This document shows, one piece after another, positions 1 to 20,704 of a stretch of DNA of 20,704 nucleotides. The number at the start of each line of letters is the position of its first letter. The stretch's first letter is position 1. Both the position numbers and the translations under genes were made by a program. The stretch is taken from IMG/VR virus record IMGVR_UViG_3300025648_000110, positions 1-20,704 of that record. One strand, given 5' to 3'. Origin of the DNA: a virus. A model generated the notes under the pieces. It was given only the letters and a program-made list of their open reading frames with translations. It had not been told where the DNA came from and searched no databases.

Positions 1-816
1 AAGCGCACCAAGGGCGCGGCTACCTGCCGTTGCCATACCATGCGGGCTAATTGTTCTGTTTAAAAAATCACCAACATTCTCAACACCACGACGTGCTGCT
101 TGTACTGGAGCACCACGCAAGGACTCCATAAATCCTGGCTTAGCGTTTAATTCTTTGTATGCGTTCTCTACTGCCTGCAGGCGAGACGCACGAAGATGTG
201 CAATACGGCTTACCTCTGCTTGGTTGTGTGCGTTTCTTGCCGCGTCTTCTTGAATTTTTAATGACTCTAGTTCCTTAGCGACATGTTCAGGAACAGAGAA
301 TGGTGTTGCACCACCCTGAATAGATTTCATGCCAGGGAATTGCTTCTCTGCGGCTATTGCCTCCTCTGCAGACTTACGTACACCAGAGTAGTCGCCCGTC
401 TCACCGGTACCATAAAATAAACCCTTACCCTCAGGGTTTACAAACTGGCTACGGCCATAATTTGCGTTAGGGTTGGATGGGTATCCCTCAACAGTAACAC
501 TACCTTGGCGGTTTTTAATTGCCTGAGCTGCAACCTCTGTCGGGCTCTTAAATGTTGGGGGAACCTGAGGAGCTGTGGTGGCCTGTGGCTTTAGACCAGG
601 GATACCGTACTTGTCAAACTCAGATTTTAATCCGGGGCCTAACATAGCACCACCAACAACACCAGCGGTGCCAGCAACAAAACCCGGTGCGGAGTAGTCT
701 ACGCTAGTACCTGGAATATTTGTTGGTTGAGCAGCAGCGGCCTGTGGTTGCTCTTGCTCCGCACGATGACGGAACTCAAACTCTTCCTGCTCTTGAGGTG
801 TCAATTCATCTGCCAT
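1..816 (-). CDS. Probable virion/internal protein, C-terminus cut by window edge
   Basis: Not covered by a complete ORF because it runs off the left edge: 272 codons are open from ATG at 816 to base 1 with no stop. The start overlaps the stop of the upstream gene by one base (TAATG), with AAGG about 8 bases upstream as a ribosome-binding site. The product starts MADELTPQEQEEFEF, is acidic and Gln/Glu-rich for about 30 residues, then has a small-residue stretch around residues 45-70 (FVAGTAGVVGGAMLG) that could insert into a membrane. A predicted helical, charged region follows from about residue 150. I do not recognise the family. As the last gene of a run of four long virion-type proteins, a DNA-ejection or internal virion protein is the best guess, by position only. 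Confidence 0.8.
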   Translation of the reverse strand, partial: MADELTPQEQEEFEFRHRAEQEQPQAAAAQPTNIPGTSVDYSAPGFVAGTAGVVGGAMLGPGLKSEFDKYGIPGLKPQATTAPQVPPTFKSPTEVAAQAIKNRQGSVTVEGYPSNPNANYGRSQFVNPEGKGLFYGTGETGDYSGVRKSAEEAIAAEKQFPGMKSIQGGATPFSVPEHVAKELESLKIQEDAARNAHNQAEVSRIAHLRASRLQAVENAYKELNAKPGFMESLRGAPVQAARRGVENVGDFLNRTISPHGMATAGSRALGAL

Positions 817-2660
817 TATTTAGCCTTTGTTTGTGATGCTTTAAAGTCTTGGTATCTTTTTTCTTTTGCTGCATCCCAACTAGAGCCTGATGCAGAAGGT
901 GTTGCTACACCAGCTTGAATCTTAAAGCCTTCATTGGACTTTAAATCCGCTGGGTTCATGCTTAATATATTTGCCAAGCGGTTATTGTGCTTATCATTTA
1001 ATGCTTGAAACTGATCGCTATCCAAGAAATCACCAAAGTTCATACCTTTATTTTTCTTGTACGCATTATAAACCTCGGCGTCAAATAATGCACGCTCACG
1101 TAATGTAGCGGTTAGTGTTTTTAGTTTACCAATTGGGTCATTAACAGAGCCAACAGCTTTTTGCACCAAACCACGCTCGTTATCCGAAACAGCGCCCTGA
1201 CCTTTAAGGTAGTTTGTGGACCACTCAAGCTCGTTCTGTTTCATAAAGCTCTCTAATTGAGCAAACTTACGGATTGCTTCAGGGCTTGCACCGGACTTAG
1301 CTAAATTCTCTTGTAGCTCCTTAAGACCAATGGAACCAAAGTTACCGGCCTCGATACCGGCCTGCATCTGGCGAACAAAAGCATCTGCCTTAGAGCCTGT
1401 TTGGTACTTGCCAACCATATTTTTAACCTCAGGGTCATCTAATAACCGCATTGTGGCGTCTTGAGTAACCTGACGTGTACCAGCGGACATACCCTGTGTA
1501 CGTAGTGTGTTTTCACCCGCGGCGTACAGTTTACCAGACTCAGTGGCCTGAGACGTAGCACCAGCAATAGGTACCTCTGCGCTCTTAGATTTAAACTCAA
1601 GGTCTTCCTTAGTGCCGGGAGCAAACGGAGAAACAACCCGTTGTGGTGCAGCTGGAGCAGGAGCTACAGGAGCAGGAGCTTGAGGTACAGGGGCAATAGG
1701 AGCTACAGGAGCTACAGGAGCGGGGGGTCTTGTTATTTGAGGCGGTGCTGGTGGCCTAATTGCGGGTATTGCTTGTGGTCCCGCTACAGGGGCTGCAGGG
1801 GCTGCCAAAGGCATAGGTATTTGAGCAGCCGCCGGAGCTGCTGTAGGAGCCATAGGAGCTCCTACAGGCGCACCGCCAGCAACACCAGTTGCTGTACCAA
1901 ATGGTGTGGCCTGTCCAGTACCAGCGGTGCCGCGAACATCATGTGGAACAAAGGCGCCAGGGCCAACGAACTTAGTCAATACTGCAGCTGGGATGAGTTT
2001 AGGATCAACTAGACCGTGCTGTACCATGTATTGTACGTCCTTGATCATATCCGTCTTGTTGGCGTTCTTAGCTAAATATTCTTGAATAGCTTTTTGGGCC
2101 CCAACGGGATCTCTTAATGCCTGATTGCCAATACTTTGACGAAGGGCTGGATCTTCTACCAATCCAAGCATACCTCCCTGTTGGACCATGGATGATCCAG
2201 AGGTGGGTGCGCCTGCGGTAATGTGTGATGGGGGCAATGTGTTTGTAGTACTTGCATTGGTGGGGCTACCAAATAAACTTTCTTGAAGTGCCTTGGTTTG
2301 AGCCATTCCAATTTTAGCCTGTGATAACTGGCTACGCATACCAAAGAGCTCTTGCTCCTGACGGGATTTATCTATTTCACGATTACGTAAACCTTCAGAT
2401 GGCCCAGCGACGCCACCAGACCACCAGGCCTGCGCGTCCTTCATGTTCTCCATGAAGCTACCCTTCTGGGCTTGCTTTTCATCAATAAGTTTTTGCATGT
2501 TGGCCAAGAGCTCTGGGTCCACACCAATAGCACCTTGTGCTGTTGGTAGAGCATATGGTCCGCGGGCTGCAGGGGCCTTGCCATAGGGTACCGCCGCAGC
2601 TTCCGGTGCAACTGCGTCTAATCCGGACTGTACTGATGTATCGCTATCTGGTAGTGCCAT
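816..2660 (-). CDS. Pro/Ala-rich virion-type protein, 614 aa
   Basis: A 614-residue protein starting at ATG 2660, preceded by AAGGAA at a good distance, and ending in a TAATG overlap with the next gene. Three parts are visible: a charged, probably helical N-terminal half (to about residue 230); a linker at about 263-345 made mostly of Pro and Ala in alternating runs such as PVAPVAPIAPVPQAPAP; and a C-terminal part (about 350-614) rich in predicted helices. Such architecture, with two folded ends joined by an extended linker, is common in phage internal or ejection proteins, but no catalytic motif was found and I do not recognise the family. The small ORFs on both strands in the linker region are shadows of its repetitive codons. 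Confidence 0.88.
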   Translation of the reverse strand: MALPDSDTSVQSGLDAVAPEAAAVPYGKAPAARGPYALPTAQGAIGVDPELLANMQKLIDEKQAQKGSFMENMKDAQAWWSGGVAGPSEGLRNREIDKSRQEQELFGMRSQLSQAKIGMAQTKALQESLFGSPTNASTTNTLPPSHITAGAPTSGSSMVQQGGMLGLVEDPALRQSIGNQALRDPVGAQKAIQEYLAKNANKTDMIKDVQYMVQHGLVDPKLIPAAVLTKFVGPGAFVPHDVRGTAGTGQATPFGTATGVAGGAPVGAPMAPTAAPAAAQIPMPLAAPAAPVAGPQAIPAIRPPAPPQITRPPAPVAPVAPIAPVPQAPAPVAPAPAAPQRVVSPFAPGTKEDLEFKSKSAEVPIAGATSQATESGKLYAAGENTLRTQGMSAGTRQVTQDATMRLLDDPEVKNMVGKYQTGSKADAFVRQMQAGIEAGNFGSIGLKELQENLAKSGASPEAIRKFAQLESFMKQNELEWSTNYLKGQGAVSDNERGLVQKAVGSVNDPIGKLKTLTATLRERALFDAEVYNAYKKNKGMNFGDFLDSDQFQALNDKHNNRLANILSMNPADLKSNEGFKIQAGVATPSASGSSWDAAKEKRYQDFKASQTKAK

Positions 2661-2669
2661 AATGATTCC

Positions 2670-3569
2670 TTAAGGGATAGTTCCGTTTGTAGCGTCGTAT
2701 GTTGTATTTGGATCAACAGCGGGAGTACTTGGCGAATTAGCCCAAGACCACAATTGATTTAGTAAACCTGGTTGTACAGCAGCAGTACCTGGGGTTGTCC
2801 CAACACCTGGAACAGCAGCAGATCCAGCACCAAATAATTGGTTAAGTATTCCTGTGTTTGCACCACCACCTAAGGCACTAATCAAACCACCAATTTGGTT
2901 AACAGGAGATAAGTTAGTTGAGTTAGAGACTGTCTGACCTGGGGTTACTGAGGACAAGACATTACCTAGGTTTGTTGCGTTAACGTAAGGTGATGCCTGC
3001 TGGTACTGACCGGTTGTCAATAGATTGTTAATATTTTGTTGACCAACGTTACCAGCTGCAGCACCAGCATTTACACCGGTTGCTTGGTTCTGTAACGCGG
3101 CTTGGTTCTGTGCTGTATTCAGTGTTGCCAAGGCGTTTGCCTTAGAGGTATCAACCGCTGTCTGACCACGTAAGCCACCAAAGTTGCCAGAGCCAATGTT
3201 ACCGGCCTCAACCGGTGCCGTTGTGGTTGGCATTAGTTGGTTCAGTTGTTGGTTCTGTGCCTGAAATAATCCACCTAGTGCAGTGTTTGTATTTGGTGTT
3301 ACATTACCGGAGGCATCTGTGTTCCATGGATTAGCCGCACCACTGGCAATGCTCTGCAGTGTGCCACCGGCCTGTGTGAAGGCGTTGGTTGGTCCAGATA
3401 GTGCATTAACAGCGTTCTGCCCAACGGTCTGCTGTGGCGTCGGTGCACCAGCGTTAGCTGCTTGTGCTTGACTAACAACGTTCTGTTGTGCTGTGTCATA
3501 CCAAGACGGCATTGCCGTTGTCTGTACACCTGTGTTGGAGATTAATCCACTGAGTCCTGTGCTTGCCAT
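2670..3569 (-). CDS. Low-complexity N/Q/A/T-rich virion-type protein, 299 aa
   Basis: A 299-residue protein with very biased composition: Asn, Gln, Ala, Thr and Gly dominate, with almost no charged residues and no Cys. It starts at ATG 3569, sharing one base with the stop of the 1804-residue gene (TAATG), so translation is probably coupled. Residues 20-60 and 120-190 carry Gln/Ala-rich helical-looking segments; the C-terminus (about 220-299) alternates Gly-Ala-rich stretches with single Trp residues (LLNQLWSWANSP). I do not recognise a defined domain. Its place between two other long virion-type proteins suggests an internal/ejection or tail-associated structural protein. No signal peptide is obvious. 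Confidence 0.85.
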   Translation of the reverse strand: MASTGLSGLISNTGVQTTAMPSWYDTAQQNVVSQAQAANAGAPTPQQTVGQNAVNALSGPTNAFTQAGGTLQSIASGAANPWNTDASGNVTPNTNTALGGLFQAQNQQLNQLMPTTTAPVEAGNIGSGNFGGLRGQTAVDTSKANALATLNTAQNQAALQNQATGVNAGAAAGNVGQQNINNLLTTGQYQQASPYVNATNLGNVLSSVTPGQTVSNSTNLSPVNQIGGLISALGGGANTGILNQLFGAGSAAVPGVGTTPGTAAVQPGLLNQLWSWANSPSTPAVDPNTTYDATNGTIP

Positions 3570-6500
3570 TATGCTTTCCTTTTTGCTTCTAAGAGATAGC
3601 CCAATGGGCCTTTTGAGTCTGGTGGTAAATCTTCGGGTTTATTGCTTTGCTTATGTGCGCGAATTGCTTTTAAGAATTGGTCTAAAATTTGAGCACCACT
3701 ATCGTTACTACCGTTGCCTAAACCGGATACCACATCGGCAGGGATCACAAACTCACCATTTGCCAACATCGCTGGTACTGAATCAGATGTGCCGGTACCG
3801 CCACCTTGAACAAAGTGCTGTAGTCCGCCCTCTGAATAAAATTCTGGGTTGTGGCCTTCAATCTCGCCACCCTCGGAGTGACCTGGGGGCATGCCCACTA
3901 ATCGACCACTTAAATCTCCGTATGCGTGGCCTGGTAGACCCATTAAACCAACGGGGCCCTTTGCCTTAACAATGGATGGGTTCATGTGCGGAAACCCTGT
4001 CTGGTTGTAGTTATATGTTGGTGATGGCAACCCACCGCCCTCAGCCATTTTGGCAGGGTTTACCGTCTCAGAAAGGGACTGTATAGGGGACTGGCTGTAC
4101 TGAGTGGCAAACAACGGTGACGCAGTCTCGGTAATTGTGGGCATCCCTAAAAGCTGTGCCTTATGTGCCGCAGCAATGGCAGGTGTTAGATGATCTATCC
4201 CAGTGCTGGTTTGACCAATGGGGTTGTATGTCCCGCCAGTTAAATCTGAGGCTGAGGTACTTCCCCCCGATGCGAATTGTTGTGGCATAATTGCTGGCAT
4301 TGATCCTGCTCCTGTGTTTGGTGTGTATACCATATTTGTCTCTGGTGCTACTGTCTCTTGTGTTGTTGGAAGGCCAACCAATGTGGCTTGTTTACCACCA
4401 CCCAGTGTTCCTACTAGGTTGGTTAATGAGCCCGTTCCGGATTGTAACTGTGGTGCAGTAAAACCATATGACGAGGCACTGTATCCTGTGCCGGTCCCAG
4501 TACCTGTTCCAGTGCCTGAACCACTACCAGATCCCGTGCCAGTTCCAGTGCCTGTTCCTGTGGTACCAGTTCCAGTGCCTGTCGCTCCTGCGCCTGTTCC
4601 TGTTGTTCCGCTACCGGTTCCAGTTGCTGTGCTGCTAATCTTAGAGCCCGTTCCAGCTGCTGTCGAGTTTATTAAAGATCCTGTACTGCTAACTGTTTTG
4701 GAAGACCCATCACTAAATGACGTGGTGATATTTCCTTTACTATCTGTTGTTTGACCAACAGGAACCGCCGAGGTAACCGAACTGGTCCCCGTAGATGTTC
4801 CAGATAAAACCGGAGCTGTTGTTCCGGATCCACCATTACCTGTATAAAAACTATTTAATAAGTTTTGATACACCGTCATAATATCTGATGGGCTGGATGG
4901 GGTGGCTGAAGGTGTTGTAGCTCCGCCAGTGGTTGTAGAACCACCAGTACTAGGTGCTCCAGGTGATCCCGACTCTCCTGTTGCCCCAGCTCCAGCGTTA
5001 CCACCACCTCCGGCAGGACCAATAACTGGTTTAGTTGTCACTGGAGCCGCTGCTACTTTAGCTGCAATTTGGTTAACAATAGCTTTATCAGATGCAGATA
5101 ATTCAGGGTAGTTAACTTGGAGTGCCTTTAAAGCAGCTAATTGCTGATCTGCAGTACCACCGGCCCATAAAGCTGGGGCACTAACATTTCCAGTTGAACC
5201 GGTTCCCCAAATGTTACCCAACATTGCATTTGGGTCTGCATCACCAAAACCATACACCCCAGCAAATTGCTTTAGTGTATTTAGTAGCCCAGGACTTGCC
5301 TTACTAATATCTGGAGCTTGTGTTGGGGTATAATTAGTTCCTGTAACAAGAATATTTAACTTACCAGTGTTATCAACGTAGCTTGTTTTTCCAGCGGCTA
5401 TTGCATTGGCTTCTTGTTGTGAGTTAAACTCATTGATTACAGACTGCGTTTCCGCCATGGCTGTTTGAGGAGTAAACCCTTTTGTTGCAGCTAAAGATTC
5501 GTAATTTTGCTTACTAACAGGATCTAAGGCATTATACGCCTGTACATTTGCAGCTGTTGCAGCGACAGAAACTGGGTCCGCACCAGGTTTAACCATCTGC
5601 GAGTTATAGTACGCAATAGCCGCAGGGTCTGTCAAAGTACTTGGGGTATTAATATTTGTTGGAGCAGTACTTGTACCAAATATTTGACCTAAAGTAGTTG
5701 ACAGTACATCTGCTGTAGTAGTCGGAACATTAGATCTAACCTGCTCAATGTATCCGTTTTGAGCATTTAGATTTAACATACTAGCATTGTTTGCAACGGT
5801 TAGTGCTTGTGTGGTATCCAGCCCTTTACTAATCGCGTTCTCGTATGACGCCTGTTGTGACTGGGTAAGATTATTAATCTGTGAGGCACTTGTAAATGCT
5901 GCGTCTAGTCCAACACCATTTTTTGCATCACTGTAGAATGTTTGTTGTGCTGTAGTACTCAATGCTGAAATCTTTGGTGCGTACGCTAAAGCACTAGCAG
6001 TATCTAATCCAAGATTTGTACCCGATTGGTAATAATCTTGATTTAATGTACTTAGACTGTTTACTCCAGAGGCTGTATTTAATGCAGCCACGCTATTTTT
6101 ACCCTCAGTCAAAGAGTTAAAAAATGAATTTTGTGCAATATCAGAAGCAGAAGTTAAAACTGGAGCACTTGTCAGGGCTTCTCTAGTTGTAAGACCTGTA
6201 TCAAGTACCTTACTAAACATTTCTTGTTGTGAGGTAGTCATTGAGTTTACAGATGAAGCAGAAGCCACTGCTGCGTTTAAATCTGGATTTTCTTGATATG
6301 CCTTACTAAATGCAGCCTGTGCTGTAGTACTAAATTTATTAATTGTCTCATCTGTATGAAGAGCTGCTACAGCAGCATTACTATCTGTTCCAGATTTCAA
6401 CGAGTCAAAGTATGCAGATTTTGCTATATCAGAAGAGCTATTAATGGTTGGTGCCGCAACCAATGCGTCAGATGTAGATACACCAGTATTTGATATCTTG

Positions 6501-8983
6501 CTAAACATACTCTGCTGGCTGTCACTCATCGCATTTACTGATGATGATGTGTTTAACGCCGATGAGTTATTTTGCCCTTCGGACAACGAGTTAAAGTACG
6601 CCTTCTGCGCAATATCAGACTGACTTGATAGCGTAGGCGTTGTTGTCAGTGCATCTCTTATATCTACACCAGAGCTAACAACCTGACTAAATAGGGTCTG
6701 GTCCTTAGCTGCCATTTCATTTACTGAGGCTGATGTACTCAATGCTTCAGTGTTACTAACACCTTGGGCTAAAGACTTAAAGTAAGTTTCTTGGGAGATA
6801 CTTGACTCTCCAGCGATAGTAGGTGCTGCAGATAATGCGTCGGTGGTATTTACACCAGCCGTCAATGCTTTACTAAATACCTCTTGCTGAGTGGAGTTTA
6901 ATCCTGTAAAATCAGAAGTATTAGTAAAGGACTGATTTACAGTTAGTCCCTCTTTAGTTGCCGCATCAAATACTGACTGCTCGTTTGGCGACATCTTATT
7001 GTAGTTCTGCACATCAGTAAAGGCATTAGCAACGGTACCACCCTGCACCATGGATGACGTAACAATGTCTTGCTGTGTTTTATCTAATGCTGCAAAATTT
7101 TGAGCATTTTCCAAAGAGCCACTTACGGCGGTTCCTTGATTCAATGCAGCATTAAATATATGCTGCTGCTGAGAATCTAATGTGGCGTATTCCTGTACGT
7201 TGCTAATTGCTGTACTGACGCTGTTATTTTGCCCGTATGCGGTACTGTATAGTGCTTGCTGCGCTGGTGTTAACGCCGCCACTGTCTGGGCATCTGATAG
7301 TGCTTGTGTGCTACTAATACCATCTTGTAGTGCGTTATTAAATGCGTCTTGGGCCACTGTCGGCATTTTATTAACTTGGTCGGCAATTGCCACCGCAGCA
7401 GATGGTGTATCACCTGACTGAACAAGTGAATTAAATGCCTGCTGTACTGACTCTGGCATATCGCCAACGCGCACAGTAATATCTGTATTTTGTGCGTTAG
7501 CAAAGGCATCAACACGGCTCACACCATTGGCGGTATCTTCATTGTATTGTGCAATAGCCTCTGGGGACACCAGTTTATTAACATTGGTCTGGTCAATAAT
7601 TTGGTTTACTGCTAAGTCTGCCGCGTTTTTAACTAACTCGTTAACAGCCGTTGCTTCATTTGCATTAAGTTCTGCTGTTTGTTGGCCAAGCTGGGTTGTT
7701 AAATTATTCACATCGGTAGATAGGGATTTTGCCGTATCTGCCGCAGTGGTTACTTGATCCACATAGCCTTGGTAAGTTGTTTTTACATCTGACAACTGCG
7801 TCATTGTTTTGCCAAATACATCAACCCCGCTATTATACTGGGCAGCACTTTTATTTAAAGCATCAACCGTTGGCAGTAATAAATTGTACTGTGTGGTTAA
7901 GTTATTTCCTGCAGCAATCCAGGGGGCTATCCAACGGTTGTATGTATACCCGGATGTTGAATTATTAAAATACCATGACGCGGATGAATAGTTATATCCA
8001 GGCTGACTTGCCAACCAGTTTAATCCTGAGGTCCAGTTTGCTTTTGCGCTATCATAGGCGTTTAACGCTGGTGTGTACCCGGTAGCAAACTGACTATCGT
8101 ACTGTGCCTTCTCCGTGGTAAACTGTCCAGCGATAGTGTTTAGGCTATCAAACTCTTGCTGGGCTGTTGCCTCAAGTGGACTAAGTGTCTGGTTGTAATA
8201 GTTTGTTGCTGTTGTCTGTAAAGTATTAGCTTGGGAGACGGCATCTGTTAAGGCAGTTGACTTTGTGGTTAACTGGTTAAAGGTGTCCTTGATTGCCGCG
8301 GAGGCCTGGTTGATGCCCCAGCTTGTTGCTGATAATACACTAGACTGGGCAATAGCATCACCAATGCTTTTTCCACCTAATATTGCCTTTGCCGCCGCGT
8401 TGGAGGCGGTAGCAACTAATGTTGAGCTAAGGCTTCCCTTATCAAACATGGCGCTACCATCGGAGTTCTTAAGTGTTGCTAATTGAGACTGGACCGCGCC
8501 AGACACAGCACCTGCGGCGCCGCTTATTAATATTTGGTCTAGTGACTTCCCACTAAGCGCTGCAGCTGCGGCGGGTGCTGAGGCACTCGTAACAATTGTT
8601 TTTAGTACCGAGGCTGTGGTTCCACTAAATCCATAATCCATTGCGGTGCTGGCGGCTAAATTACCTGCCATATTACCGGCGTTTGCTGCTGCGTATGCTG
8701 ATGCAGCAGACAACGCAATTTGTTGTATGTTGCCACCATTTGCCGCGCTTACCGCTGCGGACGCAATAATTGCCGCTCCGGCTGTATCAGCAAGTGCCAA
8801 ACCCGAAGGCCCCAACATATACGTTAATGCTATGGCCTCAATAAGTGGAAGAGGCTTATTGGTAATCTGCTTAAATGATGAGCCTACCGACGCAGAAAAT
8901 GACCCAACATCAGACACAATTCCTTGTGCAGATTGAGTAATTGAAGTACCAAAGTTTGATAATTCTTTCCCTGGATCAGACAC
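3569..8983 (-). CDS. Giant repeat-containing virion-type protein, 1804 aa (internal/ejection or tape-measure-like)
   Basis: The largest gene here, with a GTG start at 8983 (AAGG lies about 10 bases upstream; the upstream gene's stop is overlapped by 8 bases). Parts in order: residues 1-240, Ala/Gly-rich hydrophobic segments typical of membrane-active phage proteins; about 240-470, helical, Tyr/Asn/Gln-rich; 508-1068, eighteen tandem 31-residue repeats with a degenerate copy before (about 470-500) and another near 1150-1185; about 1319-1500, a Gly/Ser/Thr linker ending in (TG)n; about 1560-1660, a Gly/Thr/Pro-rich part with two GMPTITET-type motifs; and a C-terminal tail containing MLANGEFVIPADVVSGLGNG (1739-1758). 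The last motif resembles the P-A-x-L-x-x-G-E-F-V-I signature seen near the C-terminus of many phage tail and tape-measure-type proteins. Since the phage looks short-tailed, an ejection-conduit role is inferred. No enzyme motif was seen. Confidence 0.9.
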   Translation of the reverse strand: MSDPGKELSNFGTSITQSAQGIVSDVGSFSASVGSSFKQITNKPLPLIEAIALTYMLGPSGLALADTAGAAIIASAAVSAANGGNIQQIALSAASAYAAANAGNMAGNLAASTAMDYGFSGTTASVLKTIVTSASAPAAAAALSGKSLDQILISGAAGAVSGAVQSQLATLKNSDGSAMFDKGSLSSTLVATASNAAAKAILGGKSIGDAIAQSSVLSATSWGINQASAAIKDTFNQLTTKSTALTDAVSQANTLQTTATNYYNQTLSPLEATAQQEFDSLNTIAGQFTTEKAQYDSQFATGYTPALNAYDSAKANWTSGLNWLASQPGYNYSSASWYFNNSTSGYTYNRWIAPWIAAGNNLTTQYNLLLPTVDALNKSAAQYNSGVDVFGKTMTQLSDVKTTYQGYVDQVTTAADTAKSLSTDVNNLTTQLGQQTAELNANEATAVNELVKNAADLAVNQIIDQTNVNKLVSPEAIAQYNEDTANGVSRVDAFANAQNTDITVRVGDMPESVQQAFNSLVQSGDTPSAAVAIADQVNKMPTVAQDAFNNALQDGISSTQALSDAQTVAALTPAQQALYSTAYGQNNSVSTAISNVQEYATLDSQQQHIFNAALNQGTAVSGSLENAQNFAALDKTQQDIVTSSMVQGGTVANAFTDVQNYNKMSPNEQSVFDAATKEGLTVNQSFTNTSDFTGLNSTQQEVFSKALTAGVNTTDALSAAPTIAGESSISQETYFKSLAQGVSNTEALSTSASVNEMAAKDQTLFSQVVSSGVDIRDALTTTPTLSSQSDIAQKAYFNSLSEGQNNSSALNTSSSVNAMSDSQQSMFSKISNTGVSTSDALVAAPTINSSSDIAKSAYFDSLKSGTDSNAAVAALHTDETINKFSTTAQAAFSKAYQENPDLNAAVASASSVNSMTTSQQEMFSKVLDTGLTTREALTSAPVLTSASDIAQNSFFNSLTEGKNSVAALNTASGVNSLSTLNQDYYQSGTNLGLDTASALAYAPKISALSTTAQQTFYSDAKNGVGLDAAFTSASQINNLTQSQQASYENAISKGLDTTQALTVANNASMLNLNAQNGYIEQVRSNVPTTTADVLSTTLGQIFGTSTAPTNINTPSTLTDPAAIAYYNSQMVKPGADPVSVAATAANVQAYNALDPVSKQNYESLAATKGFTPQTAMAETQSVINEFNSQQEANAIAAGKTSYVDNTGKLNILVTGTNYTPTQAPDISKASPGLLNTLKQFAGVYGFGDADPNAMLGNIWGTGSTGNVSAPALWAGGTADQQLAALKALQVNYPELSASDKAIVNQIAAKVAAAPVTTKPVIGPAGGGGNAGAGATGESGSPGAPSTGGSTTTGGATTPSATPSSPSDIMTVYQNLLNSFYTGNGGSGTTAPVLSGTSTGTSSVTSAVPVGQTTDSKGNITTSFSDGSSKTVSSTGSLINSTAAGTGSKISSTATGTGSGTTGTGAGATGTGTGTTGTGTGTGTGSGSGSGTGTGTGTGTGYSASSYGFTAPQLQSGTGSLTNLVGTLGGGKQATLVGLPTTQETVAPETNMVYTPNTGAGSMPAIMPQQFASGGSTSASDLTGGTYNPIGQTSTGIDHLTPAIAAAHKAQLLGMPTITETASPLFATQYSQSPIQSLSETVNPAKMAEGGGLPSPTYNYNQTGFPHMNPSIVKAKGPVGLMGLPGHAYGDLSGRLVGMPPGHSEGGEIEGHNPEFYSEGGLQHFVQGGGTGTSDSVPAMLANGEFVIPADVVSGLGNGSNDSGAQILDQFLKAIRAHKQSNKPEDLPPDSKGPLGYLLEAKRKA
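4484..4624 (-). repeat. Low-complexity (Thr/Ser-Gly)n coding repeat
   Basis: Residues 1454-1500 of the 1804-residue protein are almost only Gly alternating with Thr or Ser. On the plus strand this reads as irregular CCTGTTCCAGTGCC-like 6-bp units, and it creates a long spurious Val-Pro ORF there. It is probably a flexible linker between the repeat rod and the C-terminal part, and is prone to slippage or misassembly. Confidence 0.85.
5780..7462 (-). repeat. 18 tandem 31-residue (93-bp) repeats in the 1804-aa protein
   Basis: Residues 508-1068 split without gaps into eighteen units, seventeen of exactly 31 residues and one of 34. The shared pattern is x-L/M-S/T/P-x-x-Q/A-Q-x-x-F/Y at positions 1-10, small residues at 11-15, G near 17, S/T near 20, A-L/F near 23-24, and V/I/Y then N/A/S at 30-31. 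This fits two short helices separated by a Gly turn, so a helical solenoid or long coiled rod is likely. The copies are well diverged in DNA, so the array is old enough to be under selection at the protein level. Confidence 0.92.
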
Positions 8984-9398
8984 TTATAGACACCTTGTAG
9001 GTCTGATGGTGAACTGGATGCAGTCCGGTATCTTCAATAACCGCATTATACCCTAAATGCTGAATAGCTCTTACTGTTGGTAAATCATCTGTAAATCCAT
9101 ACACAGAAGTAAATCCTGCGGCGTGCATCGCCTTAGCAAACTCTTGTAGATTACGTAAGAAATTCTTTGGTACATCCGCGTTAACAAAAAATATGCGTGC
9201 CTTTTTTGGCTCTTCAATCAAATAGAAAAACAAAGAGTTTCCGTGGCGAATACCACGTACTTGGTTTGTATCTAACAGCTTGTGAACCTGGGCGTACATC
9301 TTTTTCCAGTCTTCACCGGATTTCTTTATCTCTGGGGAGTGCCTAAAGATTTCCTGTTCCGACATGCGGCCAGAAGCATCTGTTAAAGGATGAGACAT
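8976..9398 (-). CDS. Small protein with GNAT-like C-terminus, 140 aa
   Basis: Starts at ATG 9398 directly after the stop of the 49-residue gene (TAAATG) and overlaps the next gene by 8 bases. The first 50 residues are charged and helical. From about residue 55 the pattern strand-strand-helix-strand (LFFYLIEE, ARIFFVNAD, helix 78-93, FTSVYGFTD, then TVRAIQHLGYNAVIED) resembles the C-terminal half of an N-acetyltransferase fold, including the R-A-x-x-x-L-G-Y stretch at 110-117. The acetyl-CoA-binding R/Q-x-x-G-x-G/A loop is not seen, so activity is doubtful. T7-type podoviruses have a small internal virion protein (gp13) between the nozzle and the large ejection proteins, and this gene is in the equivalent place; that link is inference from order only. 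Confidence 0.85.
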   Translation of the reverse strand: MSHPLTDASGRMSEQEIFRHSPEIKKSGEDWKKMYAQVHKLLDTNQVRGIRHGNSLFFYLIEEPKKARIFFVNADVPKNFLRNLQEFAKAMHAAGFTSVYGFTDDLPTVRAIQHLGYNAVIEDTGLHPVHHQTYKVSISV

Positions 9399-9617: not shown

Positions 9618-9888
9618 AAATTGATGGGCCATTGACGATTAAAGTAAACTCTCTGGCCCAGTCCTGCCACGTGGCAAACTCTTTTGGGCTAGGCACTGGG
9701 TACGCCGCAAATACGTGCATCTGTGACATATTCTGTGCTACTGACTGCCAATTTTCTTCGGGGGCAAACATCATTGGTTCTTGGCCGTAGTGAATTGCTA
9801 GGTTACCATTAAAGTCATCCCAGCTCATATAATCTGGCACACACGGGAAGTACTGCTGTATGGTGTTTTTAAGAAGTGGGGTGGTCAA
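9616..9888 (-). CDS. Small conserved-type phage protein, 90 aa, TTG start
   Basis: The start is a TTG at 9888, whose TTGA overlaps the TGA stop of the 721-residue gene; GGAG lies about 10 bases upstream. The only other in-frame Met is residue 21, which would remove a well-formed N-terminus (MTTPLLKNTIQQYFPCVPDY), so TTG is preferred. The product is aromatic-rich (MSWDDFNGNLAIHYG; WQDWAREFTLIVNG), has one Cys and no membrane segment. It looks like a compact soluble protein. I do not recognise a named family. Tight coupling to the nozzle-like gene suggests a tail or virion-assembly role. Confidence 0.82.
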   Translation of the reverse strand: MTTPLLKNTIQQYFPCVPDYMSWDDFNGNLAIHYGQEPMMFAPEENWQSVAQNMSQMHVFAAYPVPSPKEFATWQDWAREFTLIVNGPSI

Positions 9889-12050
9889 GGACGTTCATCT
9901 CCAAACTCAGCCGTGATGAGGTTACGCCCCATCTCGTAGTTGCCATCAATCTCATTAGACTCAAACTTTAACCTTACTAGGCGATGCTCAACGCGAAGGT
10001 CAATCTTACCTGTCTCTTGGTTAAAGTAATATGGCCCAGAGTTTTCCTCAGACTGACCAGAGGCAAACTTACGACCAAGGATGGTCATTGCCATCGTTCC
10101 AGTCTGTAAGAAGTTTGGCTCTACTCGTCGTAGGTGCATACGTCTATTAACACCTTGGAGTGCGTCTTGGCTTGGGTTACCAGTTAACCAACTAATATCG
10201 CTGGTAGTAATGCTGGAGTATATCGCAACCTCGCCATTTAGCGCAATCTCATTAACACCAAACTCATGCTGCCAAATATTAAACCCACCAGTAACATAAA
10301 ATACTTGCTGCCCGGGAAGGACAGTAATTGAGAACGGTGTGCTGCATGTTACTAATGTAACGCCCGGGGTTCCAATGGTAGTATTATAAATGTTCTGACT
10401 GGAAACTATTTGATAGGTTGCGTTAAAGCTATTGCCTGTCGTAAAGGTTACATTATCTCCAGGGCTGAACTGGGGTGTCTGGTCCCCATATAAATAAAAC
10501 TGACTTGCAGTTGGTGCGGCTAGACTAGCTGGGTGTGCAATAACGGTCTGGGCTGCACCATAGATTGTGTTATAGTTCCAGTCGGCCCAGATGGGTGTAG
10601 GAAACAACTCAGTGGTATACCCACATGAGCGTTGAGCACCAGTTGCTTGCCCAGCGTCGTACCATAGCTTATCTTTTACGTTGTAAATGATTGCGTCTGT
10701 GCACTCCGTCGCCGTACCTCTAGGATAAAAGAACCAGATCTCATTGTAGCGTGGGACCTTAGTCGCCCACACCTTTTGACGCTGCTCGTAGTTTAGGTTA
10801 TTAAATAGGTAGTTTATATTTTTATCATTTGGTACTACCGTTACCTGACCATTGTAGGCATAAAACCGGTCAATACCTAACCAGTAGAAGACGCCGTCCA
10901 TCTCCACAACGGAGTTAGAGGACATGATTGAGATCTGGCTGGAAACAATATCATAGTTCCAATAAATTGGAGCTGTTGCTGCTGTAAAGGTAACACGAAT
11001 AAGTGAGTCTGTTGCCCAGAATAAACCCGCGGGTGCGTTAGTACCTCCCCGCATAGGCATACCCTTAACAATCTTGGATGACGACACATTGACCTGGTTG
11101 GCTAATGGGCCGTTCCAGTCATAGAATGTCTGGTCGCCATAGGTTGTACTGACGTTGTTATTGGCAATGTAACCCGCTGAGCCATAGACAAAGATAAATG
11201 GATAAAGCACGCATACACCACCATCAACGCTGATGGGCTTGTATGTTGGCGCGGACCCTGCGCTGTCAGACAGACCAGAGAAGGTCCAGGTGTTTCCAGA
11301 TGTGGGTGTTATGCCACCAACTAATACCTGAGTTGGCACACCATTATCAATATTGGTTAAATTTAAACCTGGGTGAGCAAACACGGATAGCTGGTTGCCT
11401 GATGGGCTGAACTGAGAGTCAAACTGCCAAGTAACCCGATAGTTACCAACGGAAGGATCTGATTGATAATCTAAGTCCCCAGTAAACACAGGCACATTAT
11501 CTATGTATACCGTTGTCGGGGTACCTATGATGGTACCAGTGGATATATTTACTGTAGTGTTTGGTGTGGAGAATACAGAGGTACTTACTGTGTATACGGT
11601 CGGTGTACCTGTCTGGGAAAAGATGATCTTAGTACCCGTTGGAAATACTGTTGTCTGATTTCCAGCGACTACAAATGATGTAGAGGTATTAGACAATAAC
11701 TTAACGTAGCTTGTACCTGGGAGAATTGTGGCCGTAAATGGGCCACTGCCATCTGGCAATGAGAGGCCAGTGGTAAATATATCGAGCTCTTGGTAGTTAC
11801 CAGTGAAGATGTAGTTAACGCCGTTATATGGCTGCACGACCATACCGCGGTAGATGCCAACTAGACTATTAAATATCGTGCGGTAGCCACCAATTTTCTT
11901 AGGGTCCCCACGTTGAAATCTGCACCATACACCATCGGTGTACTGGTCGTTTTGAAACACAGTACCATCTCTTTTAATACCCGCTGGAACAGCTAAGGAA
12001 TAAATCTGAGTATACTGTGTGGTATCCTGTTGCTGATTATCAGCGGCCAT
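9885..12050 (-). CDS. Tail nozzle / packaged-DNA stabilisation-like protein, 721 aa
   Basis: A 721-residue beta-rich protein starting at ATG 12050 (TAATG overlap with the previous stop). The N-terminus contains AGIKRDGTVFQNDQYTDGVW and the C-RFQRG-KKIGGYR stretch typical of podovirus stabilisation proteins annotated after P22 gp10. Around residues 370-470 it has VVEMDGVFYWLGIDRFYAYNG, N-x-L-N-Y-E-Q-R-Q-K and YNEIWFFYPRG, a Tyr/Trp-rich blade-like pattern consistent with the beta-propeller of tail-nozzle proteins (P22 gp10, T7 gp12). Long Ser/Thr/Gly-rich stretches (about 110-260 and 480-600) look like inserted beta domains. Expected role: closing the tail channel and holding packaged DNA. Family placement is from motif memory and gene order. 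Confidence 0.8.
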   Translation of the reverse strand: MAADNQQQDTTQYTQIYSLAVPAGIKRDGTVFQNDQYTDGVWCRFQRGDPKKIGGYRTIFNSLVGIYRGMVVQPYNGVNYIFTGNYQELDIFTTGLSLPDGSGPFTATILPGTSYVKLLSNTSTSFVVAGNQTTVFPTGTKIIFSQTGTPTVYTVSTSVFSTPNTTVNISTGTIIGTPTTVYIDNVPVFTGDLDYQSDPSVGNYRVTWQFDSQFSPSGNQLSVFAHPGLNLTNIDNGVPTQVLVGGITPTSGNTWTFSGLSDSAGSAPTYKPISVDGGVCVLYPFIFVYGSAGYIANNNVSTTYGDQTFYDWNGPLANQVNVSSSKIVKGMPMRGGTNAPAGLFWATDSLIRVTFTAATAPIYWNYDIVSSQISIMSSNSVVEMDGVFYWLGIDRFYAYNGQVTVVPNDKNINYLFNNLNYEQRQKVWATKVPRYNEIWFFYPRGTATECTDAIIYNVKDKLWYDAGQATGAQRSCGYTTELFPTPIWADWNYNTIYGAAQTVIAHPASLAAPTASQFYLYGDQTPQFSPGDNVTFTTGNSFNATYQIVSSQNIYNTTIGTPGVTLVTCSTPFSITVLPGQQVFYVTGGFNIWQHEFGVNEIALNGEVAIYSSITTSDISWLTGNPSQDALQGVNRRMHLRRVEPNFLQTGTMAMTILGRKFASGQSEENSGPYYFNQETGKIDLRVEHRLVRLKFESNEIDGNYEMGRNLITAEFGDERP

Positions 12051-13321: not shown

Positions 13322-13936
13322 TTAAGGCTCTTGAATGGTTGTGTTGCGGTCTATGCGACGTGAATTGTCTTCTTTTTTCAGTGCGCCAACGGCGTCTGTG
13401 TAGAATTGTTTCCACACGGGCAGCTTGTCAATAGCCTTTAAGTAACCCTGTGCTTGCAACAAGGCCCCGTATAACATCGCCTGTGGTGCGATAGCTGTCC
13501 ATAGGTTTTGTTGATTAGAAGAATCTAATGGTTGAACCTCTGCATAGTAAATAATTTCTACAGGATAGCTTGTATCTGGCTGTGGGGCAAAGTTCCAGTT
13601 GCTGTAGTCATAGTCCGCGTAGTATACTGGCTTGCCTGCCGATGACTCAGATAAGTACTGGGCCACATAGTCCTGGCTGCGTAGTAAGACTGGCTGCCCG
13701 TTGACCTTCATAGAGACAGTTTTTCTCCAGCGTGCTGGCTTGTTCAGAACAGTTTGGTTCTGTGCAAGATTGGTCTCTACCACAATCAATTGTAGGTAGG
13801 TCTTAAGCTCTGCAGCAATTGATGACTCTGCCAGCGCAATCAGATTGGGTATCTGCGCAATGAAGTCAGGGTCATTTCGTTCCATGTACTGCTGGATATT
13901 CAGCACAAGGCTGTCGTACGACATTATTACTGACAT
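13322..13936 (-). CDS. Head-tail adaptor-like protein, 204 aa
   Basis: A mainly helical protein. The N-terminal helix pair (SLVLNIQQYMERNDPDFIAQ, IPNLIALAESSIAAELKTYL), the middle KPARWRKTVSM and YYADYDYSNWNFAPQPDTSY segments, and the C-terminal helices (TAIAPQAMLYGALLQAQGYL, WKQFYTDAVGALKKEDNSRR) match the adaptor-type proteins of podoviruses that sit under the portal. ATG 13936 is chosen because GAGG lies 8 bases upstream; this places the start 10 bases inside the homing endonuclease gene. A second in-frame ATG at 13924 (MSYDS) directly follows the endonuclease stop but has no ribosome-binding site at a normal distance, yet could be the ancestral start. Family assignment is from visual similarity. 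Confidence 0.82.
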   Translation of the reverse strand: MSVIMSYDSLVLNIQQYMERNDPDFIAQIPNLIALAESSIAAELKTYLQLIVVETNLAQNQTVLNKPARWRKTVSMKVNGQPVLLRSQDYVAQYLSESSAGKPVYYADYDYSNWNFAPQPDTSYPVEIIYYAEVQPLDSSNQQNLWTAIAPQAMLYGALLQAQGYLKAIDKLPVWKQFYTDAVGALKKEDNSRRIDRNTTIQEP

Positions 13937-14451
13937 TTAATTACCTCGTAACCCCAACGTTTTGGATTCTGCATAACTCTGTTATATGTTGTCATATAGT
14001 TTTTGTTTAAAAATTGTGATAAATCTTTTATTGTATCAAAAACTTTATTTTCAAATTTTATGGTAACTGCCCCCGGGTTGTTTTTTCCAAGCATGTGTTT
14101 TGCGTGTTCTGGACGTTTTTTCCCTAGCAATTTAGCTGCATGATTTGGTCTTTTTTTACCTAAATTACTTGGAGGATTTCCACCACCAACACATATATTC
14201 CAACCTGTTTTTTCTTTATGGCGTAACATATTTTCAATAGTAAAACAGTAGTCCGAATCTGCAATTAATACAATTTCTTTAACTAACATATTCCAGCCAT
14301 ATTTTAAAATTGCGTTTTTTAAATGAGTGTTTGTCTCACCGGAAGCATGTGACTTCCATCTTTCTTCGCAATTTTTAGATACACCAACATAGCCTTGACT
14401 AAATATATCTGTATGGTCTTTGTGGTGTATCCAATATACTGATGTATTCAT
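13927..14451 (-). CDS. Free-standing GIY-YIG homing endonuclease, 174 aa
   Basis: A site-specific DNA endonuclease expected to cut phage genomes lacking the gene and copy itself in. The catalytic domain occupies residues 1-92: V5-Y6-W7 stands for GIY, Y21-V22-G23 for YIG, then R31 (ERWKSH), E73 (TIENML) and N85 (GWN). DNA-binding modules follow: three NUMOD3-like units at 98-126 (LGKKRPNHA, LGKKRPEHAKH, LGKNNP) and a NUMOD1/IENR1-like unit at about 131-160 (FENKVFDTIKDLSQFL). The frame is open further upstream to 14622, but that part is a shadow of the gp4-like gene; the real start is ATG 14451, overlapping its TGA stop as ATGA with no clear ribosome-binding site. The gene is visibly richer in A/T runs than its neighbours, consistent with acquisition. 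Confidence 0.92.
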   Translation of the reverse strand: MNTSVYWIHHKDHTDIFSQGYVGVSKNCEERWKSHASGETNTHLKNAILKYGWNMLVKEIVLIADSDYCFTIENMLRHKEKTGWNICVGGGNPPSNLGKKRPNHAAKLLGKKRPEHAKHMLGKNNPGAVTIKFENKVFDTIKDLSQFLNKNYMTTYNRVMQNPKRWGYEVIKCQ

Positions 14452-15515
14452 CTTGTATAATAGCTGATGTTGGGTTGGAAATAGATAGGTGATTTGTCCC
14501 TGTCTTCCTCGCTGGCTTGTAGGAATGCTTTTTGTGCTTGAGCTTCTAGATATTGAACACGTTGCAAATCTACACCGGGTAGTTGTAAAGACATAGAATG
14601 TGATAATTGTTTTTGAACACAATTAATCCATCGGTCAGGTACGTAAATCTGATTTGTCAAAGATCCTACATCTTGCATTTGAACCTCAACAATTAACTGA
14701 AACATTTGAAACGAGTTATTGGGCACTGGCCAGATGTACATCGAGGGCTCAATGGTCCTATCAAACCAATACTGCAATGAGCGCTGGCTAGGGAACTGTT
14801 TATTTGGGAGATTCCAGTAGTCATCGCGATTTAAACGGGCGAGTGGAATGACTTGCTGGCTCGTAGAGAATACGATTTGACGTATAGAGAACGTAGGTGC
14901 AACCGTTTCACGCAGCCTGTAGTAAAGGTGCGTTGGTGTTGTGGTGATGTTAAAGTAGGCCCACTCTTTATCTGAGAGTGTTGTAGTCGGTAGTTGCTTT
15001 ACTGTTGTCCAAGTGATTCCATCTTCGCTGGTCTCATAGGCAAAGTTATATGTTGTTGTGCCAGTACCTACTGCGTAGCCATTAAACCCAACGTAGTAGA
15101 CAGGCTGTGCTGATTGGTACTGAAGACCAAAATAGTTAGCACCAACTGTGGAGGTAGAAACCAAGGACAGGTTTTGATCAAATACTGCAGGTGAATCTGG
15201 ATTACTAATAGGCAAGTACTCAGAGGCTGCCTGGTTGATAATGTAGACCCAGTTTGATTCTCGTACATCAATCACTGTCTTAGGTAGGACTAACTGTTGC
15301 TGGGCCGTTACGGCGCCAACGAGCATGTTCTCCAACAACCAAAGATTAACACCGAGGTTAGATAGGTTTTGAAGATTGTAAAACAATGCCTGCTTGGCGG
15401 CACCAATAAGCTCCGGGGTCATCTCCTCAGCGGTCTTACCGGCGTCACGAAACGCAAAGGAGATCAGTTGATCAACGTTGACTGTTGTATTTCCAGTGGT
15501 TCCACTGTACGCCAT
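14448..15515 (-). CDS. P22 gp4-like connector/tail accessory protein with discoidin-like insert, 355 aa
   Basis: Starts at ATG 15515, just after the TAA of the 55-residue gene. Residues 10-90 are helical (VNVDQLISFAFRDAGKTAEE, ELIGAAKQALFYNLQNLSNL) and 218-355 contain IPLARLNRDDYWNLPNKQFP, PDRWINCVQKQLSHSMSL and the terminal EEDRDKSPIYFQPNI. These two parts make up the connector-type core known in podoviruses as gp4-like or tail accessory proteins attached below the portal. Between them, about residues 105-216, lies a beta domain (YFGLQYQ, YYVGFNGY, YETSEDGITWTTVKQLPTTT, YYRLRETV, IRQIVF) with the jelly-roll pattern of F5/8-C (discoidin) domains, which often bind glycans. Expected role: head completion and tail attachment, with the insert exposed on the surface. 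Confidence 0.82.
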   Translation of the reverse strand: MAYSGTTGNTTVNVDQLISFAFRDAGKTAEEMTPELIGAAKQALFYNLQNLSNLGVNLWLLENMLVGAVTAQQQLVLPKTVIDVRESNWVYIINQAASEYLPISNPDSPAVFDQNLSLVSTSTVGANYFGLQYQSAQPVYYVGFNGYAVGTGTTTYNFAYETSEDGITWTTVKQLPTTTLSDKEWAYFNITTTPTHLYYRLRETVAPTFSIRQIVFSTSQQVIPLARLNRDDYWNLPNKQFPSQRSLQYWFDRTIEPSMYIWPVPNNSFQMFQLIVEVQMQDVGSLTNQIYVPDRWINCVQKQLSHSMSLQLPGVDLQRVQYLEAQAQKAFLQASEEDRDKSPIYFQPNISYYTR

Positions 15516-18076: not shown

Positions 18077-18388
18077 TTATGCTGGCAATGTTGTATCTGA
18101 AACCCAAGGTAATCCAGCTTCTTGTACAGAATTCTTTTGTGCTTCAATCTGTGCAGTCAGACTCGCCTCTACTGTATCTTTACCAAGTGACTCTTGTACC
18201 CAGCCAACGACTTCAGCTTCAGTCAAGTCAGCGTAAGGGATATACGCTTTATCTTCTTGTGTGTAGCCTACTGTGCCGTAAGTTGAAGCAGTAAATTCAC
18301 CATCTACTGCGTTTACTGTGTAATGAACAGTAACTACAAAGCCGTCAGAAGTAAGTCTGTCCATCTGTACTATATTCCATGTAAACAT
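18077..18388 (-). CDS. Small conserved-type phage protein next to the tail fibre, 103 aa
   Basis: ATG 18388 shares one base with the stop of the tail-fibre gene (TAATG). Residues 1-48 are strand-rich (MFTWNIVQMDRLTSDGFVVT, VHYTVNAVDGEFTASTYGTV), and 52-85 are helical with an acidic face (IPYADLTEAEVVGWVQESLG, VEASLTAQIEAQKN); the end is GLPWVSDTTLPA. Proteins with this W-x-I-x-x-M-x-x start, DLTE-VVGWV helix and AQIEAQKNP/GLPW end are common immediately after fibre genes in environmental phages (I believe DUF7936, not certain). A tail-fibre assembly or virion-associated role is suggested by coupling to the fibre gene only. Confidence 0.82.
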   Translation of the reverse strand: MFTWNIVQMDRLTSDGFVVTVHYTVNAVDGEFTASTYGTVGYTQEDKAYIPYADLTEAEVVGWVQESLGKDTVEASLTAQIEAQKNSVQEAGLPWVSDTTLPA

Positions 18389-20704
18389 TATTTAGCTCCT
18401 AATTGTGCTTCAAGTGCAGTTACTTTAGCGTTTAGTTCTTGAATAGCTTTAACCAAAAATGGAATCACACCGCTATTATCCATTTGTTGGTAATGAGGTG
18501 TTCCATCTTCGTTTACAGCATCTTTTTCGCCAGTTACGCAATTAGGTAATACGGCTTGTAGTTCGTGAGCAATAAAACCATCATCAGGTCTGCCATCTAC
18601 CCAAGTAAAACTAACTGGATTAAGTGCTTCTACAATATTTAAAGCATTTTGAATTGGTGTTACATCATTTTTTAAACGATAATCTGAAGTTACATTATAA
18701 AGAACACCAGTTGTGCCAGCTTGAGTAATAGAACCAATTTGACTTGAATTATAGGCAAATGTTACATAGTTATATCCGCTAGGAGTAGCATTTGGGTGAC
18801 CAATATTTATTGCGGAAGCACCACCAGGTACACCAAAACAAAAACCATTTGGAATTGAAGAACCAGTTGATGTAGTTCCAATCAATAATTGACCATTAGA
18901 GTCAATACGCATCCGCTCTACAGAAGAAGCACTTTGCCACATAAAATCTGCTAAAGCTGGAGATGTTTGTTTAGCAGTAATAAGACATCCCCAATTTGAA
19001 TCGGAATAAATACTTCCTGCTCCTGTAGTTCCATTTGAGCCAAAAACTAAAGATTGACTTGCTCTTATTGTGCCAGTAACATCTAATTTAACTCCTGGAC
19101 TAGTAGTACCAATTCCAAAATTACCACTACCATCAAAAATACCTCTAGGATTACCCTGACCATCAGATAACACAATGTAGTTATTTGCTGTACGGATGTC
19201 TAGACCGCCTTGATTGCCGTTATAAGCACCAATAATAGTATGGTAATAACCAGTAGTAACATCTCTACCAGCTAAATAACCAAAAAATTGATTAGAACCA
19301 CTTGTAATTGATGAATAACCAGCTTGATAACCAATAAATGTATTATTTGAACATCCAGCAGAAGCAGAATACCCAGCTTGATAACCTACTGCAGTGCTGT
19401 TAGAAGCGGTGGTGTTTGAGTAAAGCGATTGATAACCAAAAGCTGAATTGTTGCTTCCTGTGGTGTTTTGCAATAAAGAAGTAAAACCAAATGCCGCATT
19501 TTGTGAGCCTGTGGTGTTAGAAGCTAATGCACTATAACTAAACGCATCGTTTTGACCGCCAGTAGTATTTGCAGTTAAGGCTTTGTAACCAAAAGCATTT
19601 ATGTTTGCGCCTGTGGTATTTGCGTATGCGGCTTGATAACCTACTGCTGTGTTGTTAGATGCGGTGGTGTTTGAAACTAAAGAACCATAACCAACAGCGG
19701 TGTTGTTTGAGCCAGTAGTAAATTGTAATGCTGTAACACCTATAGCAGTATTACTGTTACCTGCTCCTGAGTTTCCTAATGCTTGACTACCCATTCCCAC
19801 ATTATTAGACCCGGTAGAGAAATATCCTGCCACATGACCAAAAAATGAATTTGCATTTCCTACTGTATTACTAAAACCAGCTTGATAACCAAAGAAGTTA
19901 TTATTAATCCCAGTAGTATTGTTATAACCAGACTGAAAACCCACTGCGGAGCATGAAGATGCGGTGGTGTTTGCGTTTAAAGCAGCGTCACCAAATGCAG
20001 TATTGTAATTACCTGTTGTATTTGTTGCTAATGAAGCACGACCCATTGAGGTATTACTTACACCAGTTGTATTACTTTGTAATGCAAAAATACCAAATGC
20101 CGCATTTCTTGTGCCAGTTGTATTTGCGCCTAATGCAGAAGAACCAAAAGCATCAATAGTTCCTGTTGTATTAGCGTAACCAGCTTGATAACCTACTGCG
20201 GTGTTATTAGATGCGGTAGAATTAAATATTAAAGCATTATGTCCAATAGCTGTGTTGTTTCCACCAGTATTAGATTGGTTTGCACCAACACCAACGCTTA
20301 CATTTGAACCAGTATTAGCAGTTGAGCCAGAGTTTGTACCTATAGAAATATTATTGTTGGCTGTAGTACTTGCGTATCCAGCACCAGAACCAACGGCTAC
20401 ATTGTTTGCACCAGTTGTATTCAATGCTAAAGCACCGCCACCGCCAACAGCAGTATTACTATTAACACTACCACCACCCTTACCAACAGTAAGACCTGAT
20501 ATAGAGGCATCGTTAGCTGTAGTAAGTGTTGTGCCGTTAAATGTAAGGTTAGCAGAACCAGCCAATAAGCCAGAGCTATTGTATTGAACTTGGGTGTTTG
20601 AACCGCCAGCACCACCGATTACAGAAGAGGCTAATACCCATGTCGGAGCAGAACCATTGGACTGCAAAATATAGCCATTAGTACCAATTGCTAATTTAGA
20701 TAAT
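18388..20704 (-). CDS. Tail fibre with adhesin-like repeats and S74 chaperone domain, N-terminus beyond window
   Basis: The reading frame is open to the right edge: before the TTG at 20667 it continues as LSKLAIGTNGYI, a usual fibre linker, so that TTG is not the start and the gene is 5'-truncated by the window. Counting from the TTG, residues 71 to about 470 hold roughly two dozen 17-residue repeats (NTTGxxNxAxGxxALxx and AVGYQAGYxNTT types), like the head repeats of trimeric adhesins. Then come fibre modules (GNFGIGTTSPGVKLDV, GQLLIGTTS) and, from 661 to the end, an S74 intramolecular chaperone: S661-D-Y-R-L-K666 gives the Ser/Lys pair for self-cleavage just before S661, and the end (VKAIQELNAKVTALEAQLG) is a coiled coil. 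It should trimerise, fold, and release the chaperone; it probably binds the host receptor. Confidence 0.93.
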   Translation of the reverse strand, partial: LSKLAIGTNGYILQSNGSAPTWVLASSVIGGAGGSNTQVQYNSSGLLAGSANLTFNGTTLTTANDASISGLTVGKGGGSVNSNTAVGGGGALALNTTGANNVAVGSGAGYASTTANNNISIGTNSGSTANTGSNVSVGVGANQSNTGGNNTAIGHNALIFNSTASNNTAVGYQAGYANTTGTIDAFGSSALGANTTGTRNAAFGIFALQSNTTGVSNTSMGRASLATNTTGNYNTAFGDAALNANTTASSCSAVGFQSGYNNTTGINNNFFGYQAGFSNTVGNANSFFGHVAGYFSTGSNNVGMGSQALGNSGAGNSNTAIGVTALQFTTGSNNTAVGYGSLVSNTTASNNTAVGYQAAYANTTGANINAFGYKALTANTTGGQNDAFSYSALASNTTGSQNAAFGFTSLLQNTTGSNNSAFGYQSLYSNTTASNSTAVGYQAGYSASAGCSNNTFIGYQAGYSSITSGSNQFFGYLAGRDVTTGYYHTIIGAYNGNQGGLDIRTANNYIVLSDGQGNPRGIFDGSGNFGIGTTSPGVKLDVTGTIRASQSLVFGSNGTTGAGSIYSDSNWGCLITAKQTSPALADFMWQSASSVERMRIDSNGQLLIGTTSTGSSIPNGFCFGVPGGASAINIGHPNATPSGYNYVTFAYNSSQIGSITQAGTTGVLYNVTSDYRLKNDVTPIQNALNIVEALNPVSFTWVDGRPDDGFIAHELQAVLPNCVTGEKDAVNEDGTPHYQQMDNSGVIPFLVKAIQELNAKVTALEAQLGAK
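19255..20457 (-). repeat. About 17-residue (51-bp) adhesin-like repeats in the tail fibre
   Basis: The coding sequence is built of about two dozen similar units with NTT-G or NTT-A boundaries about every 17 residues. Some are alike in DNA too: on the plus strand CAGCTTGATAACC recurs many times, and GCGGTGGTGTTTG several times. Such repeats allow in-frame gain or loss by recombination and complicate short-read assembly. Confidence 0.88.

Follow-up and report, generated by a model that had tools for sequence, protein, structure and literature searches.

In short-tailed phages, the rapid evolution of ejection proteins has kept the rules of their construction obscure. In the cited part of a report on phage SU10, five proteins (gp20–24) leave the head on genome release, and gp20 is credited with transglycosylase activity (PMC9509320). 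Ejection proteins also vary widely in size and share little sequence identity, often under 10%, according to the cited part of a review (PMC8954989). The 1804-residue protein considered here, encoded in a 20,704-nucleotide stretch of viral DNA (the window; Table 1), may be a further case, and we put the odds slightly above even (a probability of about 0.55) that it is a virion ejection protein (a pilot or internal protein) of a short-tailed phage, carrying an alpha-solenoid spacer of variable length. The array of 31-residue units that forms this putative spacer is a real, uncatalogued repeat, predicted with confidence to be an alpha-solenoid, of an uncultivated freshwater phage, and is housed in a probable ejection protein.

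The neighboring genes provide the context for this reading. Both the head-to-tail adaptor and the tail nozzle protein match solved podophage proteins, so the phage is probably short-tailed, as a preliminary description of the sequence had supposed. Two small genes separate the nozzle gene from that of the 1804-residue protein, and the one just before the latter (8976–9398, minus strand; 140 aa) is GNAT-like by eye, with no Pfam or PHROGs match. Three or four more genes follow and then, in the near relative L005, the strand switches to a DNA polymerase gene. The same order of adaptor, nozzle and cassette is found in L040, L066, L005, MW202545 and Caulobacter phage RW. In MW202545 and RW, which are distant relatives, the cassette closes with a gene that encodes an SLT transglycosylase domain. 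No transglycosylase or hydrolase was detected in the window lineage’s own cassette; the cassettes of P22 and Sf6 are also described, in the cited part of the review, as being without a peptidoglycan hydrolase (PMC8954989). The last cassette gene of L005 (20645–22336; 563 aa) has no Pfam or PHROGs match and by eye resembles an ADP-ribosyltransferase or a polyvalent protein. Elsewhere in the window, a tail fibre candidate of 771 codons (18388–20703, minus strand) bears a C-terminal S74 chaperone domain (Pfam, 4.7e-12) and many short repeats of the NTTG/NTTA type, and a homing endonuclease gene (13927–14622, minus strand; PHROGs, 8.4e-15) sits between the two neck genes and extends over the 3′ end of a 355-aa structural ORF. 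A 219-aa counterpart of the homing endonuclease, with a GIY-YIG profile match, occupies the same place in L010 (6718–7377).

Table 1. Features of the 1804-residue protein gene and of the genes around it in the window.
Feature	Position	Strand	Basis
Cassette gene truncated at the window edge; 756 aa in L005	1..816	(-)	Cassette order
Cassette gene, 614 aa, no assigned function	816..2660	(-)	Cassette order
Next cassette gene, 299 aa, no assigned function	2670..3569	(-)	Syntenic in L005, L040, L066, MW202545 and phage RW
CDS, 1804 aa, GTG start, stop included	3569..8983	(-)	One reading frame of 1804 codons
Conserved C-terminal domain, residues 1700–1804, tape-measure-like motif TSDSVPAMLANGEFVIPADVV	3572..3886	(-)	Family conservation
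Linker with Gly/Thr-rich tract, residues 1195–1690	3914..5401	(-)	Comparison with L003 and L005
Array of eighteen 31-residue two-helix units (predicted), residues 508–1068	5780..7462	(-)	Periodicity, AlphaFold2, selection
Fourth A/B pair, residues 914–975	6059..6244	(-)	Identity to composite A/B units
34-residue unit, residues 849–882	6338..6439	(-)	Landmark; equal length and place in L121/L226 homologue
Three A/B pairs, residues 694–879	6347..6904	(-)	Identity to composite A/B units
Degenerate nineteenth unit before the array, residues 471–501	7481..7573	(-)	HMM score
Region between N-terminal part and array, residues 236–470	7574..8278	(-)	Alignment
N-terminal Ala/Gly-rich, weakly hydrophobic region, residues 1–235	8279..8983	(-)	GRAVY 0.44
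Tail nozzle protein, 721 residues, upstream	9885..12050	(-)	Profile A5 against solved nozzles, E 1.2e-10 to 1.5e-9
Head-to-tail adaptor, 204 residues	13322..13936	(-)	Pfam SU10_adaptor, 2.9e-20; solved SU10-type adaptor 7z47, 3e-10

The array itself is strikingly regular. As the preliminary description had claimed, residues 508–1068 consist exactly of eighteen units that follow one another without a gap, all of them 31 residues long except for one of 34. The autocorrelation lies far above that of shuffled sequence: self-identity over residues 481–1130 is 0.26 at a lag of 62 and 0.23 at a lag of 31, and 500 shuffles never gave more than 0.139 at any lag. The Q-Q..F/Y, central G and A-L pattern proposed earlier agrees with the column counts over the eighteen units, in which position 2 is L or M, 7 is Q (17/18), 10 is F or Y (17/18), 13–14 are A-L, 17 is G (16/18), 23 is A (16/18), 24 is L, 27 is A and 30 is V or I. 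Between the window and L005, the array shows a dN/dS of 0.056 at a dS of 0.42, indicating purifying selection and hence a constrained protein. Two AlphaFold2 models lend support, as predictions, to the two-helix solenoid unit that had been suggested. The first, of residues 440–1200 (761 residues; 15-row alignment), has a mean pLDDT of 85.5 and a regular helix-loop-helix-loop course across the array, each unit holding two helices of about 12 residues, but its pTM of 0.42 means that the long-range shape is not fixed. The second, of six units (residues 663–848; 18-row alignment), repeats the two-helix pattern with a pLDDT of 96.5 and a pTM of 0.86. As a prediction, an alpha-solenoid of 31-residue helix hairpins is therefore well supported.

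Searches of viral contigs yielded near relatives of the array, and the nozzle and adaptor genes and the conserved C-terminus led to more distant ones. Copy number does vary among them, as had been anticipated. All 18 units occur in the near relatives L002, L003, L004 and L005; the ORF is identical in L002 and has full-length homologues in L003 and L005, and the frame of the L004 homologue is broken near the low-complexity linker (14236–14392), leaving pieces of 1464 and 465 codons, through either a real frameshift or an assembly error. About seven units are present in L172 and L078, three or four in L082, L085, L042 and L196, and two or three in several others. In L121, 18 units are read before the contig ends, and L226, a contig of a different metagenome, shares an exact overlap of 177 residues with it; the joined reading, a two-contig composite, holds 27 units. 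This L121/L226 homologue seems to be without the tape-measure-like C-terminal motif, its terminus reading ...QPLDYLKGRK. The degenerate unit ahead of the array has an HMM score of 8.0 bits in the window, 16.0 in the composite and 19.9 in L172. Beyond these contigs, the repeat region was not matched by any of 50,697 annotated phage records, 72,556 plasmids or about 700 bacterial genomes (from one phylum and one family, in sets that held no positive control), so that on present data only uncultivated phages of this group have the array.

The middle of the array is built as a 62-residue super-repeat, in which units of type A, ending DAL..AP, alternate with units of type B, beginning ..S.IAQ..YF.SL. 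When the window’s units are classed as A or B by sequence identity to their counterparts in the L121/L226 composite, the window has four pairs and the composite nine, with three versus four through the 34-residue unit and one versus five beyond it. The first few and the last three units are kept between the two, whose copy numbers thus differ mainly by 62-residue, four-helix steps. Recent duplication was considered and rejected, the A/B pairs within the window being only 49–58% identical at the DNA level, and the pairs are for the same reason old.

Tandem helical repeats of 30–40 residues are also, in general terms, a feature of TPR, Sel1, ankyrin, PPR, HEAT and TAL effector proteins; none of these matched the array by Pfam, NCBIfam or PDB search, nor did TPR, Sel1, ankyrin or other Pfam helical repeats do so above the curated cut-off. 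Searches of Pfam, NCBIfam and PHROGs returned no meaningful match to the array and PDB sequence searches no natural family, on which grounds a known repeat family was rejected; the earlier statement that the repeat is not TPR, Sel1, ankyrin or another recognized family stands. Weak Pfam matches on relatives, such as DUF6400 or LysM_OapA, fall under the curated cut-offs and do not track the repeat. DUF4214 (PF13946), which occurs in the same gene of 12 of the 47 relatives scanned, has no match above its curated cut-off in the window’s array or in the rest of the protein. TAL-like DNA binding was likewise rejected, since no TAL effector was among the PDB matches and the array is acidic (48 D+E versus 20 K+R), a composition that argues against simple charge-based DNA binding or DNA wrapping.

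The only significant PDB sequence matches of the repeat were the designed alpha-toroids dTor_12x31L (5byo) and dTor_9x31L (4yxz), built like the array from 31-residue helix hairpins with a matching F/Y..AL..G-h pattern. A natural left-handed toroid resembling dTor_12x31L, closed or superhelical and enclosing a pore, was thus attractive at first: profile A4 matched that design at 2.9e-7 and nothing natural, the 440–1200 model matched it in Foldseek (E 2.3e-4), and unit length and loop motif are equal. The idea was weakened by a permutation control, in which dTor units, their 31 positions permuted alike in every copy, scored as high in 3–7 of 1000 cases, so that part of the sequence score reflects the shared period. 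It was weakened further by the poor superposition of the confident six-unit model on dTor_12x31L (Foldseek E 0.035, TM 0.29, rmsd 11.9); no PDB entry reached E 0.001 with this model, and AlphaFold2 may have had the dTor entries in its training. The dTor proteins are designed rather than natural, and their designers wrote that the first-generation geometries resembled nothing seen in nature or among solved structures (PMC8556268). A toroid is accordingly judged extremely improbable. Since the superhelix geometry differs, convergence would be of the unit at most: the predicted models suggest a unit pattern like that of the designs with a packing between units unlike theirs. A search of a viral structure library returned low-similarity helical proteins alone.

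On either side of the array, the protein is less uniform. The N-terminal region is conserved in alignments of relatives and has a best 19-residue hydropathy of 1.62; no strong transmembrane helix was found. The region that follows is, by its sequence character, a probable coiled coil. Past residue 1195, the linkers of L003 and L005 have a different sequence and a Gly/Thr tract of different length, making the array’s downstream boundary mosaic. The C-terminal domain (~105 residues) is common to 94 distinct proteins, with some columns invariant, and the 80 complete members of this family range from 296 to 1912 aa (median 925). Their middles consist of 31-residue units, of DUF4214, of Cys-rich sequence (MW202545) or of little at all, and these comparisons make the array one option among several for the middle of a gene whose C-terminus is fixed. 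Phage RW, which has Caulobacter vibrioides CB15 as its laboratory host, contributes gp066 to the family. In the MW202545 member (L227:19062–20981), the Cys-rich middle is accompanied by a stretch of the C-terminal domain that occurs twice in tandem, and a short member of 373 aa (L127:8052–9170) has a Cys/Pro-rich middle with CEPPxC-type repeats.

Such interchangeable content raises the possibility that the array is passive, evolvable bulk that is kept folded and soluble but does no particular mechanical work, in a protein that enters along with the DNA and might serve, for instance, as an early effector or against restriction. That unrelated sequences occupy the same place in relatives is in keeping with this idea; strong purifying selection on the array, its conserved ends and the orthologous 34-residue landmark unit are not, and we consider it unlikely.

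The C-terminal domain bears on a further alternative. Its TSDSVPAMLANGEFVIPADVV motif region matches several PHROGs tape-measure profiles (best 1.1e-6) over a short stretch of ~40–60 residues, and the likeness to the tape measure proteins of long-tailed phages centers on GTSDSVPAMLANGEFVIPADVV. The protein could conceivably be a tape-measure-like scaffold, with the array as a ruler that sets a dimension of the tail or of a trans-envelope conduit; copy number and total length vary widely, and the annotation of a related phage group includes a tail tape measure protein and lists no internal virion proteins (PMC11053796). The match is nevertheless short, the gene adjoins an adaptor and a nozzle of the short-tail type, and the examined parts of MW202545, a complete relative, carry no annotation of a tail tube gene. 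Most relatives are without the array, some family members being only ~300–400 aa, and such a ruler seems quite unlikely. The length-setting role put forward in the preliminary description is not supported, because near relatives are invariant at exactly 18 units and many family members have no array, and nothing was found to correlate with copy number among relatives. It is more doubtful still that phages tune the reach of a trans-envelope conduit through four-helix (62-residue) modules, with a copy number matched to the thickness or layers of the host envelope, a natural ruler that we regard as distinctly improbable.

An ejection protein is the most economical reading in light of the gene’s position after the adaptor and nozzle, the analogy to SU10 and the review’s account of variability, and it is from locus synteny and homology that we infer a virion ejection role. 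The protein would be the product of the first large gene of an ejection cassette that begins after the nozzle gene, and would be packaged in the virion and leave with the DNA. Its layout would comprise an Ala/Gly-rich N-terminus, a probable helical coil, the alpha-solenoid, a flexible linker and the tape-measure-like C-terminal domain, with the solenoid acting as a structural spacer of variable length between the N-terminal and C-terminal parts. Most likely, the solenoid would be a rod, or a part of the wall, in the structure by which the short tail is prolonged across the host envelope while DNA is ejected. The rod or conduit segment is what we infer: the array would probably work as a rod of adjustable length within the apparatus that drives viral DNA across the host cell wall, and an ejection conduit is plausible. 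The high S, T, N and Q content of the repeats, the Gly/Thr-rich linker and the decoration of tails by phages of such type could instead point to a protein that binds receptors or lies on the surface, its repeats forming a stalk on the outside. This is very unlikely, as the S74-type tail fibre candidate lies elsewhere in the window, the gene follows the nozzle and opens a cassette that has a transglycosylase in relatives, and the N-terminal part is Ala/Gly-rich and hydrophobic.

Read as an ejection protein gene, the locus offers a single place where one end is fixed and the middle is swapped or stretched, in one lineage by means of a countable array of helix hairpins. The natural series of about 2, 4, 7, 18 and 27 units makes the effect of length on DNA delivery directly testable, and the unit is a new, very regular natural alpha-solenoid that comes near designed repeat proteins in length and pattern.

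Compared with the ejection proteins of SU10 (gp20–24), P22 (gp7, gp16 and gp20) and T7 (gp14, gp15 and gp16), the window protein stands apart in several respects. Neither the whole protein nor an N-terminal profile matched any solved or known ejection protein, a weak test because such proteins, in the cited part of the review, often share less than 10% identity (PMC8954989). Tandem 31-residue repeats and a tape-measure-like C-terminus are likewise not mentioned for these proteins in the cited parts of the two sources (PMC9509320, PMC8954989). The likenesses lie in the setting: the phages are short-tailed, in the window’s case probably so, with an adaptor and nozzle of homologous type, a transglycosylase is present in the cassette of distant relatives of the window, and the large variation in size and very low conservation between phages that the cited parts of the same sources describe (PMC9509320, PMC8954989) are shared by SU10, P22, T7 and this locus alike.
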